A DNA stretch of 64,000 nucleotides from Labilibaculum filiforme. GTDB taxonomy: Bacteria; Bacteroidota; Bacteroidia; Bacteroidales; Marinifilaceae. The DNA lies in assembly GCF_002843315.1 (NCBI RefSeq), contig NZ_MVDD01000004.1, positions 186,001-250,000 of the forward strand, read 5' to 3'. Shown here one piece after another: positions 2,002 through 28,637 of the stretch; position 1 is the first letter of the stretch; every line of letters starts with the position of its first letter. The translations under genes were made by a program, and so were the position numbers. The notes beneath the pieces are model-generated. The model ran no database searches, was not told the DNA's origin, and was given only the letters and a program-made list of their open reading frames with translations.

Positions 2002-2986
2002 TAAGTATACTATTCTGGGAAAAGAAATTAAGAAAGGCGAGCGTGCTTTCTTAGAATTGGAAGTTGCAAAATTGCATACCCGAAATACCATTAAGGTACC
2101 TGTAATTGTAGAACGAGCTAAAAAAGATGGACCTACCCTACTTTTAATGGGTGGCGTGCATGGCGATGAAGTAAATGGAGTTGCTATTGTTCGAGATATC
2201 ATTCGAAAAAAATATAATAAACCAAAAACCGGAATGATCATTTGTATTCCGGTGTTTAATGTATTTGGATTCTTAAATCTACGAAGAGAATTTCCCGACG
2301 GAAGAGATTTGAATAGAATGTTTCCTGGTTTTTTAAATGGATCGCTTGCCAGCCAGTTTGCCTATCGGTTTACCAAAGAAATTGCTCCGAAAGTTGATTA
2401 CGTGATCGATTTCCATTCCGGTGGTGCCGACCGATCAAATTTCCCCCAAATTAGATGTGTTATTAAAGAAAAAAAATCCCTGAAGCTTGCACAAATTTTC
2501 AACGCTCCATTTATTTTGAATTCCGAGTACATCTCCAAATCAGTGCGTGACACCATTCATAATTTGGGGAAAACAATTTTACTATTCGAAGGTGGAAAAT
2601 CGAACGACTTGGACAAGGATGTGATTAACTGTGGTGTGGAAGGTGCGTTAAATGTAATGAGATATTTAGGATTGCAAAATGAGGAGCCAGAACTAAAGAA
2701 TAACCCAGTTGTAATTCCGAAAGCTCAATGGGTAAGAGCATCTAATTCGGGCATGTTTCAATTGCGGGTAACTAATGGCAGTTGGGTACTTAAAAAACAA
2801 ATACTTGGCGAGATAACCGATCCATACGGAGGGTATGAGAAAAAAGTATTTGCTCCGTTTGATTGTTACGTTTTTTGCGTAAACACTGCGCCAATTGTAC
2901 ACAAAGGAGATGCTTTATTTCATATTAGTCTCGAAATAGAAAAAACAAAAACAAATCTTCCTTCACCTACAAATTTAGAAAAGTAA
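1991..2986 (+). CDS. Succinylglutamate desuccinylase/aspartoacylase family deacylase
   Basis: A zinc carboxypeptidase-like deacylase of about 331 residues (PF04952). Counting from the ATG at 1991, the zinc ligands are visible as GGVHGDE (His57, Glu60) and DFHSGG (His142); the substrate-binding RDLNR lies at 105-109 and FEGGK probably carries the catalytic Glu. The longer reading from a TTG at 1982 adds three residues with no support; the ATG overlaps the end of rimK by 11 bases, typical of translational coupling. In Bacteroidetes and gamma-proteobacteria this family is found with RimB and RimK, suggesting that it removes or recycles an acyl-amino-acid product of the same pathway. The exact substrate is unknown. 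A terminator follows at 3006-3043. Confidence 0.86.
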
Positions 2987-3005
2987 CTTACAAAAAAGAT
3001 AATTC

Positions 3006-3043
3006 ATCACAGCTGGTTTTCAATAACTGGCTGTGATTTTTAT
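3006..3043 (+). terminator. Intrinsic terminator of the rimB-rimK operon
   Basis: ATCACAGC (3006-3013) pairs with GCTGTGAT (3030-3037), followed by a short T-rich tail. It lies 20 bases after the third gene of the operon. Confidence 0.75.
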
Positions 3044-3061
3044 TTCCTCCAATCCAATATA

Positions 3062-3510
3062 TTATTCCTTCTCGTATTTAAAAGCAAATTTATTTTTAGT
3101 GATATACCAATCTTTTTCAGCAACATAGTCCATAATAATTGTTCTACCAACAAATTTTGCGGCATACAAAACTCCTGCGGGAATATAGTAACAATCCCCT
3201 TTTCGATATTTTTTTTCGTTCTCCACCAATATTAAGATCCATTTCCCCTGCAATCACTATTCCACAACGGGCAGCATGCGAATGTCTTGGAATTTCGCCA
3301 ATACCATTGAAATCAAAGAATACAACTTGTTACTTCTCCCCTTGCATTAACCATGCCCAAACTCCATCATAAGACATCTCTACTTCGGGTAAACTTTTTA
3401 TCATTTCGGGATAAATATCATTAATACCTTTATCTATTTAATATTTATTCTGATGCGCCAATAAATTGCTTTCGATTAAAAAAAATAGCTGATGCACAAA
3501 AAAAAGGATA
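3062..3510 (-). pseudogene. Decayed cupin-domain protein gene
   Basis: Read on the minus strand this is a single cupin protein broken by several lesions. Upstream pieces read VHQLFFLIESNLLAHQNKY, then a TAA, then IDKGINDIYPEM continuing to VWAWLMQGEK, then a second TAA, then QVVFFDFNGIGEIPRHSHAA to MDLNIGGERKK. At an A8 run (about 3208-3215) the frame shifts by one, and the intact last part, YRKGDCYYIPAGVL to the stop at 3062, continues in another frame. Both stops stand where a CAA (Gln) codon would complete the protein, so each is explained by one C-to-T change. The conserved cupin features are the HSH metal-binding segment and GDCYYIPAG. The 5' end is uncertain. The remnant suggests a small metal-binding sensor-like cupin lost recently, since the protein sequence is otherwise well kept. 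Confidence 0.8.
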
Positions 3511-3750: not shown

Positions 3751-6330
3751 ATGATAAAAACTCACTCGTTCGTTAATCTAAGTATCTGTATTCTACTTGT
3801 TAATTTAGTATTAACCCCTTTAGCTACCATTGCGACAAATTCAGATCCAAATAAACTGCAGGTCCCTTTTTCGGTGAACAAACAAAATATAACTGTATGG
3901 AATGGTGAATGTTATGTGCCTTTTTTTATAAAAGGAATCAATTTAGGTGTTTCTGTTCCTGGTACATTTCCTGGAGAACTGGCTGCTACTAAAGAACAAT
4001 ATTCACGCTGGATTGCAGACATGCAAGATGTTGGTTTTAATTGCATTCGACTTTACACTCTGCACTATCCTCGTTTTTATGAAGCTTTAAAAGAATTTAA
4101 CGATACCAACCCAGCAAATCCTATGTTTGTAATGCACGGTGTGTGGCTCGATGAAAATATTGAAAACTACAACAACGATTTACATCAATTAAATGAGGTT
4201 TTTACCCAAGAAATAGAGGATGTTATTGATTGTGTTCATGGAAATAAAAGAATTGAACATCGTTTCGGAAAAGCTTATGGCACCTACTCTACAGATATCT
4301 CTCCCTGGATTATATCCTATATTATTGCCAGAGAAATACATCCTGCTGAAGTAGAAAAAACAAATAAAAATCATGCCGATCAAACTTCTTTCGTCGGACA
4401 AATTTTTAAATTAAACGTCGCTAATCCTTCGGAAGTGTGGGTAAGCTCCCATTTAGAATCTTTAGTACTATACGAACGTACTAACTACAATACAGAGCGT
4501 CCCGTCAGTGTTTCCAACTGGCCTACTTTAGATCCCTTAACGCATCCAACTGAAACAACTTCGGAAGATAGGTCCTCAATAGATCTTGCCAATTTAAATA
4601 TAACTGGTGCACCTGCAGGTTTTTTTCTAAGCTATAATGCTTATCCATACTATCCAAATTTTATTAGTGAAGATCCTGTTTATCAACAATATTTTGACAC
4701 TCGGGGATCCAATAGCTATTTAGGATATATTACAGATTTGAAAAATCATTATCAAAATTTTCCTGTACTTATAGCAGAAATTGGTACTCCATCGAGTTGG
4801 AGAGCCGCTTACTGCTCCACCAGCGGAATGAATCATGGGGGTAATTCTGAAGTAGAACAAGGTTTAAATTTTCTTAGATTACTCGATAATATTAAAGAAG
4901 CCAACTGTGCTGGAGCAATTGAGTTTTCATGGATTGATGAATGGTTTAAACGAACTTGGATTACGGACCCATTTGATTTTAATCCGGAAGCAAGAATTTT
5001 ATGGCACAATGTAACCGCAGCAGAACAAAATTATGGATTAATTGCTTTCCGTCAAGCAGAAACACATTACACTGATCTTGAAAATTTCGGGAAAAATAAG
5101 CCCATTACCAAAGTTATGTCTGCAGCAAATTTCGACTATTTCAAGCTTCGCCTAAAGTTGCAAAATGAACTATCCAATATCGATACCATTTGGGTAGCCA
5201 TTGATACCTACGATGCTACTCTTGGGGAATCTATTTTACCAAACGGAACAACGATTACTAACAGGGCTGAATTTGCTTTACAGATTACCAGCGACTCTGC
5301 CAAACTATTCGTAACGCAAGCATACGATTTATATGGTATCTGGCACGGAGTATCTGAAGATAAACAACTATATCATTCCATTCCTACTGATGGTGCTCCT
5401 TGGAATTTAGTGCGATGGAAAAACAATAACAGTTCCCTTAAAGTACAATACATTGGTAATTTAAAAACAAGACGATCCGAATTGCCTCCATCTAGTCTTG
5501 ATGCCGTAGTTATTTCCAATGATTCTATAGACATTCGCTTGCCTTGGTCCTTGTTACAAATTACAGATCCTGCTAATACAAAAGTGATGAATGATGAAAG
5601 ATCGACGAAAGAAACCGAAGAAGCTATTTCGGATGGTATTGCTCTTACTATTCTTCACAATAATGTATTATTGGAAGGAAATAACCGTTTTTTATGGAGT
5701 TGGGGTACTCCTAGCAATTATGTGGAGGTGAAAAAACAGTCCTATTATATTACGAAAGATGGACTAACAGAATTCAACAATGTACCCATAGCATACGTCG
5801 ATTCCTATGAAATAAATCAGGACAAAATTCTAAGTATTGAAGCCAAAAACGGTTTGCTGGCTAATGATTTCGATTTTGATGGAAGTTTAATTTATTCAGA
5901 ATTATCGGGATTCACCGAAAATGGATTCGTTTTTCTAAAGGAAGATGGTTCTTTTAAATACATTCCGAATACTGGTTTTAGCGGAGAAGATTTTTTCACC
6001 TATCGTGCATTTGATGCAAGAGGGCACTCCATAGAAACGAAGGTAAGCATTGCTGTTGCTTCTACTACTGCAATTAAGGATTTCGAAGAAGTAGAAGCTC
6101 CTAACATCAGTATTTATCCAAATCCAACAAGTAATTTTTTAACTATAAATTTTCCAGGTAAACACAAAAAAATTCTTAGAATCATCAACCGAAGTGGGTC
6201 CATCATCTACAAAAAACAAATTCGTAGGACAAAATATATTATTGATGTTCAATCATATCCCAAAGGAGTTTACCTATTAAAAATTCAAACAAATGGAAAA
6301 TTGATTAGTAGAAAAATTGTAATCAACTAA
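3751..6330 (+). CDS. Secreted TIM-barrel glycoside hydrolase-like protein with cadherin-like domain and T9SS sorting tail
   Basis: An 859-residue exported protein. Residues 1-30 form a signal peptide. Residues 50-430 look like a (beta/alpha)8 glycosidase: FFIKGINLGV (58-67), GFNCIRLYTL (95-104), an acid in AREI (Glu195) and a likely nucleophile in VLIAEIGTP (Glu343). A beta-rich region follows, then a tandem cadherin-like/Ig segment near 695-780 (LLANDFDFDGS, GFSGEDFFTYRA), and a type A T9SS sorting domain from about residue 785 (ISIYPNPTSN ... PKGVYLLKI). It would therefore cross the outer membrane by type 9 secretion and be released or surface-attached. I do not recognise the CAZy family; the fold resembles GH2/GH5-clan catalytic domains and the substrate is unknown. 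It stands alone, convergent with the downstream receptor gene. Confidence 0.75.
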   Translation: MIKTHSFVNLSICILLVNLVLTPLATIATNSDPNKLQVPFSVNKQNITVWNGECYVPFFIKGINLGVSVPGTFPGELAATKEQYSRWIADMQDVGFNCIRLYTLHYPRFYEALKEFNDTNPANPMFVMHGVWLDENIENYNNDLHQLNEVFTQEIEDVIDCVHGNKRIEHRFGKAYGTYSTDISPWIISYIIAREIHPAEVEKTNKNHADQTSFVGQIFKLNVANPSEVWVSSHLESLVLYERTNYNTERPVSVSNWPTLDPLTHPTETTSEDRSSIDLANLNITGAPAGFFLSYNAYPYYPNFISEDPVYQQYFDTRGSNSYLGYITDLKNHYQNFPVLIAEIGTPSSWRAAYCSTSGMNHGGNSEVEQGLNFLRLLDNIKEANCAGAIEFSWIDEWFKRTWITDPFDFNPEARILWHNVTAAEQNYGLIAFRQAETHYTDLENFGKNKPITKVMSAANFDYFKLRLKLQNELSNIDTIWVAIDTYDATLGESILPNGTTITNRAEFALQITSDSAKLFVTQAYDLYGIWHGVSEDKQLYHSIPTDGAPWNLVRWKNNNSSLKVQYIGNLKTRRSELPPSSLDAVVISNDSIDIRLPWSLLQITDPANTKVMNDERSTKETEEAISDGIALTILHNNVLLEGNNRFLWSWGTPSNYVEVKKQSYYITKDGLTEFNNVPIAYVDSYEINQDKILSIEAKNGLLANDFDFDGSLIYSELSGFTENGFVFLKEDGSFKYIPNTGFSGEDFFTYRAFDARGHSIETKVSIAVASTTAIKDFEEVEAPNISIYPNPTSNFLTINFPGKHKKILRIINRSGSIIYKKQIRRTKYIIDVQSYPKGVYLLKIQTNGKLISRKIVIN

Positions 6331-25373: not shown

Positions 25374-25406
25374 TTTGGACTAGTCGGTCTAAAACCCCTA
25401 TATTTG
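25374..25406 (+). promoter_or_regulatory. Sigma-ABfr-type promoter of tRNA-Arg
   Basis: TTTG (25374-25377), 21 bases, then TATATTTG (25399-25406): a full Bacteroidetes promoter match. The transcript would begin near 25413, about 14 bases before the tRNA. Confidence 0.75.
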
Positions 25407-25426: not shown

Positions 25427-25500
25427 GGATGCGTAGCATAACTGGATAGTGCACTACGTTACGGCCGTAGAGGTTGGGGGTTCGAATCCCTCCGCGTTCA
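25427..25500 (+). tRNA. tRNA-Arg (anticodon ACG)
   Basis: The cloverleaf can be drawn in full: acceptor 25427-25433 with 25493-25499 (GGATGCG/CGCGTTC, two G-U pairs), T8-A9, D-arm stem GCAT/GTGC with the loop holding GG, anticodon stem CTACG/CGTAG with loop TTACGGC (anticodon ACG at 25461-25463), a five-base variable loop and T-stem GGGGG/CCCTC with TTCGAAT. The discriminator is A25500; CCA is not encoded. ACG is read as ICG for arginine. The gene lies at the left end of three tandem repeats that copy its own 3' end. Confidence 0.95.
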
Positions 25501-25892
25501 CAGAAAACTCAGCAAGAAATTGGTGAGTTTTTTTTATGCACTAAAATGAAAATACATTCGGGGAGGCGAACCCAATTGGGGGTTCGTACCTGGCTCATGA
25601 CGAGGAACGAGGAATCATCCCTCCGCGTTCACAGAAAACTCAGCAAGAAATTGGAGCGTTTTTTTATGCACTAAAATGAAAATACATTCGGGGAGGCGAA
25701 CCCAATTGGGGGTTCGTACCTGGCTCATGACGAGGAACGAGGAATCATCCCTCCGCGTTCACAGAAAACTCAGCAAGAAATTGGTGGGTTTTTTTTATGC
25801 ACTAAAATGAAAATACATTCGGGGAGGCGAACCCAATTGGGGGTTCGTACCTGGCTCATGACGAGGAACGAGGAATCATCCCTCCGCGTTCA
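25501..25892 (+). repeat. Three tandem 130-131 bp units starting at the 3' end of tRNA-Arg
   Basis: Units: 25501-25631, 25632-25761 and 25762-25892. Each begins CAGAAAACTCAGCAAGAAAT and ends ATCCCTCCGCGTTCA, identical to the last 15 bases of the tRNA (25486-25500). All share the hairpin CGAACCC-aattgg-GGGTTCG, an 11-base match to the tRNA T-arm (TTGGGGGTTCG) and a tandem ACGAGGA. The units differ only in the right arm of a terminator-like hairpin and the length of its T run: TGAG+T8, AGCG+T7, TGGG+T8. No ORF is supported across them; the one open frame present simply reads through the repeat and part of the tRNA. Confidence 0.93.
25504..25535 (+). terminator. Intrinsic terminator of tRNA-Arg, inside repeat unit 1
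   Basis: AAAACTCA and TGAGTTTT pair around a 12-base loop and are followed by T. It is perfect only in unit 1; unit 2 has lost pairing and unit 3 keeps it with a G-U pair. Confidence 0.8.
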
Positions 25893-26194
25893 CAAAAAAA
25901 ATCTTACTTAGGCAAAGGGGCTTGCCCCCTCTAAGCTAGAGAATCGCTACCATTTATTTAGTGGCGTTTTTTTGTTTTTAGCTGAAAAATAAATTTTATT
26001 GCATTCATATACGATTTTACTGAGCTTTGTAGCTTCTCCCCTTTCCTTGGAAAGTTTTATGGTTCTGATGGGATTTTGAATTGGGCTTTGATGGGGTTTT
26101 AGAGAGGTTTGGCAGTGTAAAATTTGGTATGTGTGGGAAATACTCGACGTGGAAAAAGCGAAGTGAGATCTAAGTCTTTTGTATGCTTTACTAG
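25893..26194 (+). other. Gene-free stretch between the repeats and the RloB gene
   Basis: 302 bases. They hold a double hairpin (CTTAG ... GGGGC/GCCCC ... CTAAG, 25907-25935), a clear plus-strand terminator at 25945-25973, and a loosely repeated GATGGG(A/G)TTTT (about 26060-26101). No gene is seen. Confidence 0.6.
25945..25973 (+). terminator. Intrinsic terminator downstream of the tRNA repeat array
   Basis: CGCTAC and GTGGCG pair (one G-T) around a 10-base loop and run into seven T. It would stop any read-through from the tRNA promoter before the convergent RloB gene. Confidence 0.78.
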
Positions 26195-26836
26195 TTATAA
26201 TTCTATTTCTAGTATTTCAAACAAACGATAAATTTCAGCTTTTGCCTGTTGAGGATTTTCAGGAGCATATTGCCCTAAAGCTTTTGCTCTTTGATATGCC
26301 ACATTCAAATTTGGCTTTAACCTAGCATATATTCCACTTCCCGAAATATAATATTTTCTACTCTTGTTGTATCTCAAAATTGGTATTGTATTCAACTCTC
26401 TCTCAAATTCAGTATAAGTCCTATAAAATCGGCCTATTTTTTTAATATGTAGCAAATACCAATATTCCAAACAAGGCACATTTACTAATACATCCACATT
26501 TTCAATTTCGGATAATTTTAGATAACATTCATTGAACTCAACCAAAGGAGATTTTCTTCCTCCTTTAAACTCTCTTTCTTCTTTTAAGATGGTATCAAAG
26601 TCAACCATCCATATAGATTGATCGTAATGTTTAGATTCTTCTTTTATCGTCTCAAATTGCTGAGAAATTGTTTTCTTTTTATTTAAATCAGGTTTTATCG
26701 TTAGAGATTTTAATCTTTCAATATCCTTCAACTGATCGAGATACCACTTTTCAGTTTCTCCATCAACGAGAACATAAATAGTCTTATTCCCCTGTCCTCT
26801 TCTCTTTCTTTGACCTTTTCGATTATCTCTATTCAT
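26195..26836 (-). CDS. rloB: RloB-like TOPRIM-fold protein (defence partner)
   Basis: 213 residues from the ATG at 26836 (an ATG two codons earlier is also possible). A very basic N-terminus (NRDNRKGQRKRRGQ) is followed by YVLVDGETEKWYLDQL, whose GETE resembles the TOPRIM glutamate, and WMVDFDTI with Asp79 and Asp81 as the likely metal-binding pair. RloB (PF13707) is named for Campylobacter genes inserted in restriction-modification loci. It overlaps the ATPase gene by 8 bases, so the two are expressed together. The pair is typical of phage defence systems in which an ATPase controls a nuclease-like effector. Nuclease activity here is inferred from the motifs. Confidence 0.83.
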   Translation of the reverse strand: MNRDNRKGQRKRRGQGNKTIYVLVDGETEKWYLDQLKDIERLKSLTIKPDLNKKKTISQQFETIKEESKHYDQSIWMVDFDTILKEEREFKGGRKSPLVEFNECYLKLSEIENVDVLVNVPCLEYWYLLHIKKIGRFYRTYTEFERELNTIPILRYNKSRKYYISGSGIYARLKPNLNVAYQRAKALGQYAPENPQQAKAEIYRLFEILEIEL

Positions 26837-28136
26837 AATCAAGATCTAAATAATAATCACTTAAATTAGGAGTTGCACCCAATTTACCAGCTTTGTAGGC
26901 ATTATACACCGAGCTCTCTTTACGAATTACCGAAGAATCAAAATCATCAAGTGAAAATAAATCAGTACTCCCATCCTCTTTCTTTTCGGTAAACCAAATA
27001 GCATCATTTCTGAAAATATCTTTTTCCATCAATAATTCACGAAGATGTGTTGTAGCTATTAATTGCGATTTTTTAGAATTAACTAAAAAACTTAAAAGAA
27101 AATGTTTTAACAAATCGGGATGTAAAGAAGATTCAAATTCATCAATTGGAAATATTATTTCATTATTAATCAACATATCTAACAAACCACCAAATTCATA
27201 ATAACGCTGAGTTCCTGCAGATTCATCATCAAATGAAAGATGATACTTACCAGTACCATTAACAACATGTTCAAATAACAATTCCTTTGTTGTTATTTTT
27301 TTTTCTGATTTTAGCTTCTTTAATTTAGACTCATAAATTAGTATTTGTTCTGATATAAGATCTGTAAATCCTGACGTTACTACTTGTTCATTTACATCAA
27401 CTACAATATCTGAAATATTAAAATCGGCCTTTTTCAATACTTCAAGTATGGTTCGCTTATCGATCTCTTTTGAATCTAATTTATTAGAAACATAGTCGAA
27501 TAAATTCGATTTCGAATGAACTATTGATTTTAGTTTATTTTGAAACCAATCAATCACATTCTGTAGTTCTATTGATTCTATATTAGTTTTTAAAAAGCCT
27601 CCTAAAACCGTATTGTTCCACAAGGTATTTGCTTCTAAAATTAATTTATGTGCTTTATTAATCTCTATTTTACCTCCAAAAGTAATCCTTGTCAACTGCT
27701 TTTCTATATCAGTTACTCGTTTAAAAACTAATGCCTTATTGGGATTAAAAAATCGCAACTCTTCACTAACAACAGTATTCTTATTTACTTCTAAATCGTA
27801 TAGATATTTAATTCCTTCTTGAAAAAATTCGATACTCAATATTGTATTTTCGTTTGGGGTGTTTGATGAAAATAAAAAAGGACTGACATTAATTGTATCT
27901 GTTTTTTTATCAACAGGTTCCAATATTAAATCTCTGAGAAAATCAAGAGCTTTTAATACATTCGTTTTACCCGAAGCATTTGCGCCATAAATCAAACCTA
28001 ATTTTAATAAACGAACACCTTCCTTAGGTTCAATAATATAATAATCCTCCAAATTATCTGACTTGGCAGCTTCGAATGATAATGTTACTTTGTCCTTTAT
28101 AGAACGAAAGTTTTTCACTGAAAAATTAACTAACAT
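26829..28136 (-). CDS. AAA/ABC-type ATPase, RloA-like (defence partner)
   Basis: 435 residues from the ATG at 28136 (MLVNFSVKNFRSIKDK), the usual start of this family; the extra 22 codons upstream have no similarity. Walker A is GANASGKT (51-58), the ABC-like signature is ESAGTQRYY (about 305) and the Walker B region is IIFPIDEFESSLHP (about 325-338), followed by an H-loop in ATTHL. The middle has coiled-coil regions, so it is an SMC/Rad50/OLD-like ATPase of the AAA_15/AAA_21 type. It is directly coupled to RloB. Such pairs abort infection or cut foreign DNA/RNA when phage is sensed. The exact system name (RloAB, retron-less Septu-like, or OLD-like) cannot be fixed by eye. Confidence 0.86.
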   Translation of the reverse strand: MLVNFSVKNFRSIKDKVTLSFEAAKSDNLEDYYIIEPKEGVRLLKLGLIYGANASGKTNVLKALDFLRDLILEPVDKKTDTINVSPFLFSSNTPNENTILSIEFFQEGIKYLYDLEVNKNTVVSEELRFFNPNKALVFKRVTDIEKQLTRITFGGKIEINKAHKLILEANTLWNNTVLGGFLKTNIESIELQNVIDWFQNKLKSIVHSKSNLFDYVSNKLDSKEIDKRTILEVLKKADFNISDIVVDVNEQVVTSGFTDLISEQILIYESKLKKLKSEKKITTKELLFEHVVNGTGKYHLSFDDESAGTQRYYEFGGLLDMLINNEIIFPIDEFESSLHPDLLKHFLLSFLVNSKKSQLIATTHLRELLMEKDIFRNDAIWFTEKKEDGSTDLFSLDDFDSSVIRKESSVYNAYKAGKLGATPNLSDYYLDLDYE

Positions 28137-28637
28137 GATACTTTTACTTTCATTATTGTAAATCAATTGCAAATTAAAGGATAAAAACATTAAAAACAAC
28201 ACTATTGTGTATTTTTCAGATCAATCAAATATTTTTTTTTTAAGAGAAGTCCTATTTGTAGAAATATTACTATCCCAGAAAAACACATTGTCCTCTTTCT
28301 TGCAGAAATAGAGGTAAATAACACTTCCTTCGAATTATCATATTTACAATACAAATGCAAATAGAATTATTCAAAAAAACGTTCTCTTATAATATTAATA
28401 GCTTTCAGATTACAAATACACAGGAGCTACAATAAAATTAGTCATAGCCTGACATTTACAACTTGTCTATAGTCAGGGAATGACGAGAAAAACAGTTGTC
28501 AGAATTGGATTGCAAATCAAACCTCAGCGAATCTTCTTTTGTCCTGTTTAGATCATTAAAAAAACCCACTCCTTTCGAAGTGGGTTGAACCAAATGAATG
28601 AAGGCAAATATTTTCACCTTCTTTAACCTCAGGCAAT
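28137..28637 (-). other. Gap between the defence pair and the glucan locus
   Basis: About 500 AT-rich bases. The right end carries the terminator of the PUL (28558-28586). No copy of the 15-base tRNA 3' end is seen here, so if the RloAB pair came in by tRNA integration, the far attachment site is not in this gap. No gene is supported. Confidence 0.6.
28558..28586 (-). terminator. Terminator of the beta-glucan locus
   Basis: AACCCACT and AGTGGGTT around an 8-base loop; the minus strand continues into seven T. It follows the last gene of the PUL (28638). Confidence 0.88.

Follow-up and report, generated by a model that had tools for sequence, protein, structure and literature searches.

We report that the repeats behind a tRNA-Arg(ACG) gene of a marine Bacteroidota bacterium are probably tRNA-linked repeats (TLRs), a reading to which we assign a probability of roughly 70%: three small cassettes, each joining a terminator to a structured core that copies the tail of the upstream tRNA. 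The window analysed here is a 64-kb stretch of genome G000 (a 5.2-Mb draft in 55 contigs), and the site of its array is called locus A. The tRNA-Arg(ACG) gene, at 25427-25501 on the plus strand (Rfam RF00005, 57.3 bits), is the sole tRNA that ARAGORN finds in the window, and Rfam at gathering thresholds returned nothing in the window beyond the tRNA. Directly 3' of it stand three tandem units of 131, 130 and 131 bp, each closed by the tRNA 3' tail, which make up the single tandem array in the 64 kb (25486-25899, period 131, 3.2 copies, 97% matches; Tandem Repeats Finder). The 15-mer ATCCCTCCGCGTTCA occurs four times on the plus strand, at 25486, 25617, 25747 and 25878, and nowhere on the minus strand of the window. 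Pairwise identity of the units is 128, 130 and 128 of 131, with the one to three mismatches per pair confined to the terminator stem and its surroundings, and the copied tail consists of the 15 nt plus CA in all three. The array and its tail copies are far above chance expectation, and the four tRNA-Arg 3' ends and three near-identical units of about 131 bp noted in a preliminary description of this DNA are confirmed.

An assembly artefact is an unlikely source of the array, since the window units differ from one another and a single-contig relative (G003) carries an array of its own; nor is a single true copy indicated. The copy number given for the window in this draft assembly could be wrong, as two contigs of the genome (C9 and C11) terminate within or beside a related array.

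Each unit runs, on the plus strand, from CA through a terminator and an AT-rich spacer to a core of about 73 nt. Unit 1 (25501-25631, 131 bp, delimited from the sequence and Tandem Repeats Finder) contains terminator, spacer, core and tail in that order, and its putative intrinsic terminator, read in the sequence at 25504-25535 (AAAACTCA..TGAGTTTTTTTT, or AAAACTCA..TGAGT8), is the first after the tRNA. Units 2 and 3 have corresponding terminators at about 25635-25665 and 25765-25796, with altered stem letters. Unit 2 (25632-25761, 130 bp) has its core at 25685-25753 and its tail reaching 25761; unit 3 (25762-25892, 131 bp) has its core at 25816-25884 and its tail reaching 25892, both placed by Tandem Repeats Finder and by R2, the wider of two covariance models used in this study (24 rows). 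Core 1 with its tail (25555-25631) opens on the T-arm of the tRNA in reverse complement (..GGCGAACCC); the 5' strand of the T-arm (GGGGGTTCG) comes next, then 30 nt in place of the T-loop (25587-25616, between TTCG and ATCCC), and last ATCCCTCCGCGTTCA (25617-25631), identical to the tail of the tRNA itself. R2 scores core 1 at 67.0 bits over 25555-25623, this sequence being among the model's own rows. In tRNA terms, the core can be described from its sequence as a 3' half whose T-loop is enlarged and which has a partial antisense copy of itself in front. Upstream of the tRNA lies a promoter-like TAnnTTTG box (TATATTTG, 25399-25406, plus strand, read in the sequence), so called after what we take to be the Bacteroidota promoter consensus. 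By eye, similar boxes precede many tRNA-Arg copies in relatives, and none was seen before the units.

Comparison of the sequences identifies the hairpin in the T-loop insert, P3, as the best-supported structure of the element. In unit 1 it spans 25597-25615 as ATGACGAG-GAA-CGAGGAAT, with pairs and tandem G.A mismatches below a GAA loop, and it is predicted from covariation across the family. Over all 29 distinct P3 regions, with no stem placed by hand, the mean best stem score was 6.32, a value that no round reached when the 3' halves were permuted between elements (1000 rounds, mean 5.10, maximum 5.64) or the letters were shuffled (1000 rounds, mean 4.71, maximum 5.16); these figures are a guide, since related sequences among the 29 regions lack independence. 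An earlier test, which used 14 of 23 stems placed by hand and omitted stems of other lengths, duplicates and weak stems outside that hand placement (G004B, G006B, G045 and G012), had found 118 of 126 cells paired against a maximum of 112 in 20000 permutations, and the covariation held when the test was repeated on all 29 regions. The inner pairs are AC/GT, GC/GC or GT/AC, longer stems read GGAAC/GTTCC or GAAGTC/GACTTC, and one element has Watson-Crick pairs in place of the tandem G.A; P3 is weak or broken in a few elements.

Two further helices are conserved: P1, in which the 5' arm would pair with the tail, and P2, in which GAACCC (25568-25573) would pair with GGGTTC (25580-25585). P2 was placed from alignment A1, where it is kept in 94% of cells, and from the predicted fold of the window unit, which has a hairpin there two pairs longer. 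Covariation in P1, P2 and P3 was suggestive on 14 sequences; on the wider alignment of 24 sequences none was detected for P1 and P2. Folding z-scores were -1.6 for the window, -4.1 for G061, 0.0 for G048, +1.0 for G065, -1.2 for the tRNA-Ser element of G000 and -2.3 for E. coli. P1 was not seen in energy-based folds of the window, G048 and G065 elements, nor P3 in that of the window unit, the energy model disfavouring tandem G.A pairs. Counts of G.U against A.C, as a test for the RNA strand, were 18 against 18 for P1 and P2 together and 6 against 2 for P3.

Arrays of this kind recur elsewhere in the genome and the genus. G000 has two further tRNA-Arg(ACG) loci with arrays, B (three 133-bp units) and C (at least three units of 183 bp in which the D-arm and anticodon arm are still present), and one element at a tRNA-Ser locus. 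Congeners differ: locus C of the single-contig G003 holds five units of about 195-224 bp and a chimera, the three units of G006 (about 154-170 bp) are tRNA-like and lack the insert, and the copies of G002, G004 and G007 are single or decayed; at some orthologous loci the core has decayed or is absent. Tandem expansion of one unit, among the explanations first offered for the window, agrees with the near-identical units and with this copy number, which varies among congeners and is not fixed. A chimera at L027 (7640-7714, minus strand) fuses a tRNA-Arg-type unit to a tRNA-Ser tail and terminator, and its sequence reads as a sign of recombination between elements of different tRNAs. Apart from the arrays, tRNA-Arg-like genes with a T-loop insert were observed at L028 3386-3497, L032 about 2427-2527 (minus strand) and L034 about 5244-5344. 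Between locus B and the locus C array of G000 lies an open frame of 9072 codons (G000:C9, about 151.99-179.20 kb; L079, L183), whose C-terminal end presumably resembles a gliding-type adhesin domain; in G002, G004, G006 and G007 the tRNAs of loci C and B are just about 270-630 bp apart.

The cleanest comparison of a locus with and without a unit comes from another genus (g33), where 131 bp between the first two tRNA-Arg genes of G059 have no counterpart in G040 or G061. Outside this piece, which ends in the tRNA tail, 68 of 79 and 75 of 78 spacer letters align; the comparison is one of presence and absence and sets no older state. G050 also lacks the unit of G059, with the gap split in its alignment. 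At locus A, where orthology rests on the upstream AraC and YceI genes, a flank (TCTTACTTAGG...terminator) stands directly 3' of the tRNA in seven compared loci of five genera and directly 3' of unit 3 in the window (25893-25975, plus strand), the seven being the computed locus-A cases with the flank after the tRNA (G005, at a contig end, was left out). One of them, G003, has a core further on, within a tRNA-like copy. At the other A loci, cores adjoin the tRNA in G006, G040 and G050, and G002, G004, G007 and G008 have an apparent truncated unit. The shifted flank in the window could reflect insertion of units at the tail. A multi-step origin may also apply, in which the window units took the place of the first flank and of the body of a second tRNA copy; this is possible since several relatives (G001, G014, G016 and G071) have at locus A a second tRNA copy bearing the same flank, and since the second copy of G003, which is tRNA-like, contains the insert. 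The initial suggestion that the repeats are scars of small units at a tRNA end thus stands as regards a precise unit, on the 131 bp of G059 and the flank shift, with a multi-step origin as a possible alternative in the window.

Searched order-wide (393 genomes), R1, the covariance model of Arg cores, matched G000 alone; in 29 chosen genomes it gave matches in 13 at E<=1, and it detected the core behind tRNA-Ser(TGA) of G000, whose end differs from the tRNA-Ser tail at one of 14 letters. With R2, whose scope is the family genomes, so that distribution figures hold within the family, 51 matches at E<=0.01 were found in 16 of 56 genomes of Marinifilaceae (a family assignment inferred from genus membership), ten of the 16 having supplied training rows and thus matching by construction and six (G003, G048, G064, G065, G045 and G072) not. 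Weaker matches, beyond E=0.01 (26 of 56 genomes at E<=0.5), were left out of the count, since inspection showed chance hits among them. A 21-mer of the insert, allowing up to two mismatches, occurred only in tRNA-linked repeats, in 4 of 59 genomes, each belonging to this genus. An exact 19-mer, in one genome_contigs scan, also hit one Halpernia and one Microbacteriaceae contig, with about two chance hits expected by our estimate; R2 found nothing convincing on these two contigs.

Six anticodons are represented among the tRNAs that precede core matches: Arg(ACG), Ser(TGA), Ser(GCT), Ser(GGA), Leu(TAG) and Val(TAC). Across 42 chosen loci with 56 matches, a tRNA on the same strand lies within 1300 nt upstream in 48, and in 31 of these at 23-60 nt. 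The 14-nt tail fits the upstream tRNA better than it fits five other types in 40 of the 48, a test that is largely, not wholly, independent of R2, as the model stops where the tail starts. By type, the fit holds for 28 of 29 Arg cases, many of them copies within arrays, and for 12 of 19 others, several by one letter; the eight cases without a best fit to their own tRNA are mostly truncated or decayed and include the G003 Arg-type body with a Ser tail. An orphan element with a tRNA-Ser tail was also observed (L164, about 1002-1079; G065:C1:1287001), with no tRNA in the surrounding 2 kb. It lies about 96 kb from a tRNA-Ser array and is inverted relative to it, possibly marking an inversion or an island end.

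These features recall the TLRs of E. coli (Egan and Landy 1978, Rudd 1999, as cited in PMC8144298), which are described in PMC8144298 as 22 copies at ten loci, one to five at each, with the last 18-19 bp repeating the 3' end of the upstream tRNA or rRNA, the tail rule that defines the class. The elements described here likewise lie downstream of tRNA genes, in several copies per locus (one to five) and at several loci, in most cases with a tail that copies that of the upstream tRNA gene. E. coli too has TLRs behind tRNA-Arg(ACG), at argV, argZ and argQ, and copy number varies in the arrays here as it does in rtT, a 175-bp repeat variable in number between Salmonella serovars (PMC2658671). Three E. 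coli TLRs (rrA/rrB/rrF) are reported in PMC8144298 to sit between the two terminators of rrnA, rrnB and rrnD and to be transcribed by read-through. There an RNA gene and a terminator come before a TLR that carries the gene's tail, and a second terminator closes the series, an order also seen in the window. These three lie behind 5S rRNA and are reported as transcribed, whereas the window units are known as DNA sequence. Further differences are a core of about 130 nt in the E. coli TLRs, including rtT/RttR (RF00391), against about 73 nt here, in another phylum; an intrinsic terminator before the core in most units here; and a window tail that lacks an encoded CCA at its end.

Seven E. coli K-12 stretches carrying tRNA or rRNA genes were compared, and three of these contain non-tRNA tail copies: four at tyrTV, three at argVYZQ and one behind the rrnB 5S rRNA. 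In all seven repeats at tyrTV and argVYZQ, a terminal hairpin is followed by GA[GA]T[AC]-ATCC and the tail, a junction absent from the rrnB 5S repeat (7 of 8 overall). The same junction is present in 35 of the 56 Marinifilaceae matches, window units included, the other 21 being near misses and decayed copies. The first tyrT repeat has TGAGAACC..GGTTCG in common with the elements here, and the predicted folds of the tyrT repeat and of the G061 element contain, in the same order, a closing stem with the tail, a GAACC..GGTTC hairpin (P2) and a terminal hairpin; the predicted folds of the window, G048 and G065 elements do not show this arrangement. R2 matched the tyrT repeat at 20.4 bits (E=0.0017 in 22 kb) by its two ends alone, with about 33 model positions skipped, and gave no match on the E. 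coli Arg repeats. Conversely, RF00391 had no hit on the window units up to E=10, and its best Bacteroidota match among six Marinifilaceae loci scanned, the tRNA-Ser element of G000, reached 26.7 bits (E=0.24). The model gives the Arg repeats of E. coli itself 29-31 bits, close to this value and likewise below its gathering cut-off (45 bits). As that cut-off is not reached, the elements stand outside RF00391, and it is their layout and tail rule that place them in the TLR class, as a Bacteroidota variant.

Common descent with the E. coli repeats is likely, and the class may span two bacterial phyla; in the open-access literature searched we found no report of TLR-like repeats in Bacteroidota. 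What the preliminary description missed is that the repeats belong to a family found behind six anticodons, usually with the tail of the upstream tRNA, for which the E. coli TLRs are the known counterpart. A bolder proposal, which we hold tentatively and consider rather doubtful, is that TLRs form a single cross-phylum class of mobile terminator cassettes that would enter precisely at the 3' ends of stable RNAs, duplicating the tail and replacing the terminator, with a hairpin serving their own propagation and a mover outside the two enzyme families tested here.

Among the alternatives, a neutral minisatellite, in which a tRNA 3' end and terminator were duplicated in tandem, decayed and were amplified by unequal exchange with nothing maintained, would account for the near-identical units, their variable copy number and the decay at orthologous loci. 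The second tRNA copies at locus A in several relatives also speak for it, as do the locus C units of G000, G003 and G006, which retain most of a tRNA, without the insert in G006. We nevertheless regard it as unlikely, as a core with a covarying hairpin recurs in several genera and behind six anticodons, for which decay alone is insufficient.

Still less probable, in our judgement, is that the repeats are attachment-site scars, in which a tyrosine integrase crossing over in the tRNA T-loop inserted very small elements, the cores being attR. The position of the insert agrees with this, the T-loop being a known crossover point of integrases (PMC1762012), and so do the direct tRNA-tail repeats on both sides of each unit, the existence of chimeras of tRNA 5' parts with a core, the orphan cores with a tRNA tail before them (G040:C47 and G065:C1:1287001) and an integrase fragment about 330 bp past the tRNA-Ser core of G000. 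Against it, no PF00589 match lies within 70 kb of Arg loci A, B and C on the assembled G000 contigs (C11 begins at the array), in line with the first impression that no integrase is present; the window units are gene-free; and the tail usually matches the local tRNA, where an integrase element would bring one identity block. The window array was also unmatched in phage and plasmid collections, and two exact core patterns yielded no convincing core in viral contigs, where the best R2 match was 20.5 bits over 28 nt. A tyrosine integrase was accordingly set aside as the mover, none being found near the Arg loci on assembled contigs and a fragment at the tRNA-Ser locus only. That fragment (L024, about 2630-3160; G000:C2) has 187 aa and matches PF00589 positions 106-170 at 43.7 bits. 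Two hits from the searches for viral, phage or plasmid carriage lie within tRNA clusters; in the viral contigs L080 and L081 the stretches examined contain 28 and 25 clustered tRNA genes. The comparable tandem islands at ssrA in Dehalococcoides, as described in PMC3146451, have repeats that delimit islands many kb in length, often with an integrase module, in contrast to the units here, which hold no genes.

The T-loop hairpin bears on one last alternative. In DNA, hairpins with a GNA loop and tandem G.A pairs are very stable, and a repeat of the same hairpin design as P3, GTCATTCCGAACGAAGTGAGGAATC, was observed in viral contigs L131, L132 and L133, followed by its inverted partner in L131. 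That a Y1 transposase recognises P3 as a DNA hairpin, as in a REP/HUH-type single-strand-DNA element, is highly improbable: its design is that of the dispersed motif found in these three contigs (ATTCCGA-n-GAGGAAT, which we take to be a REP motif), but this motif is absent from G000, where the insert is not dispersed, five genomes with cores (G064, G065, G045, G013 and G048) have no PF01797 match, and others with Y1 genes (e.g. G016, G017, G044, G042 and G071) have no R2 match. Y1 genes are present in G000, and a Y1 transposase was rejected as mobiliser, its presence being uncorrelated with that of the core. An integron attC site was considered as well and dropped. Just downstream of the array, at 26195-28202 on the minus strand of the window, lies an AbiL-type defence pair, composed of an RloB-like gene (PF13707, PADLOC AbiLii) and an AAA_21/AAA_15 ATPase gene (PADLOC AbiLi, E=9e-78); in G002, a fragment of the RloB gene (80% over 66 aa) persists at this tRNA locus. 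A link between the array and these neighbouring genes was dropped, arrays being present also at loci B and C.

Taking the repeats as tRNA-linked repeats, we propose that a unit arrived at the 3' end of an existing tRNA-Arg gene, having either inserted there or taken the place of a second tRNA copy's flank and body, and that this would have left the 15-17 nt tail at both sides of the unit. Such tail repeats would have permitted unequal exchange or slippage and hence amplification to three units, and units may also have been exchanged between tRNA-Arg loci and among tRNA loci, as in the Arg/Ser chimera of G003. The unit 1 terminator would now stop transcription of the tRNA, and occasional read-through may yield an RNA that folds and is trimmed at its tRNA-like 3' end, by analogy with RrB of E. 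coli. The introduction of PMC8144298 gives TLRs no known function up to then, and the paper reports RrA, RrB and RrF as transcribed and processed and as binding Hfq and CsrA in vitro. For the short RNAs processed like a tRNA 3' end that were suggested at first, the E. coli rrn operons offer a precedent, small RNAs being transcribed there from the same layout. A small RNA made by read-through and a selfish element are both candidate readings of the role of the element, and both are unproven. That the element is essential to the host is made less likely by its patchy presence and by decay at orthologous loci, and conservation of P3 argues against pure decay; the patchy, often decayed distribution together with the conserved P3 fits a selfish or weakly selected element.

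A second, distant lineage supplies natural variation that separates the parts of these repeats that are held (P3 and often the junction) from those that are not, and it also provides a clean pair of loci with and without a unit and arrays of different age. What has been a curiosity of E. coli thereby becomes a testable question, namely whether such repeats are useful small RNAs tied to tRNA transcription or minimal parasites of tRNA genes, and the finding shows one way in which tRNA loci acquire new terminators and turn unstable.
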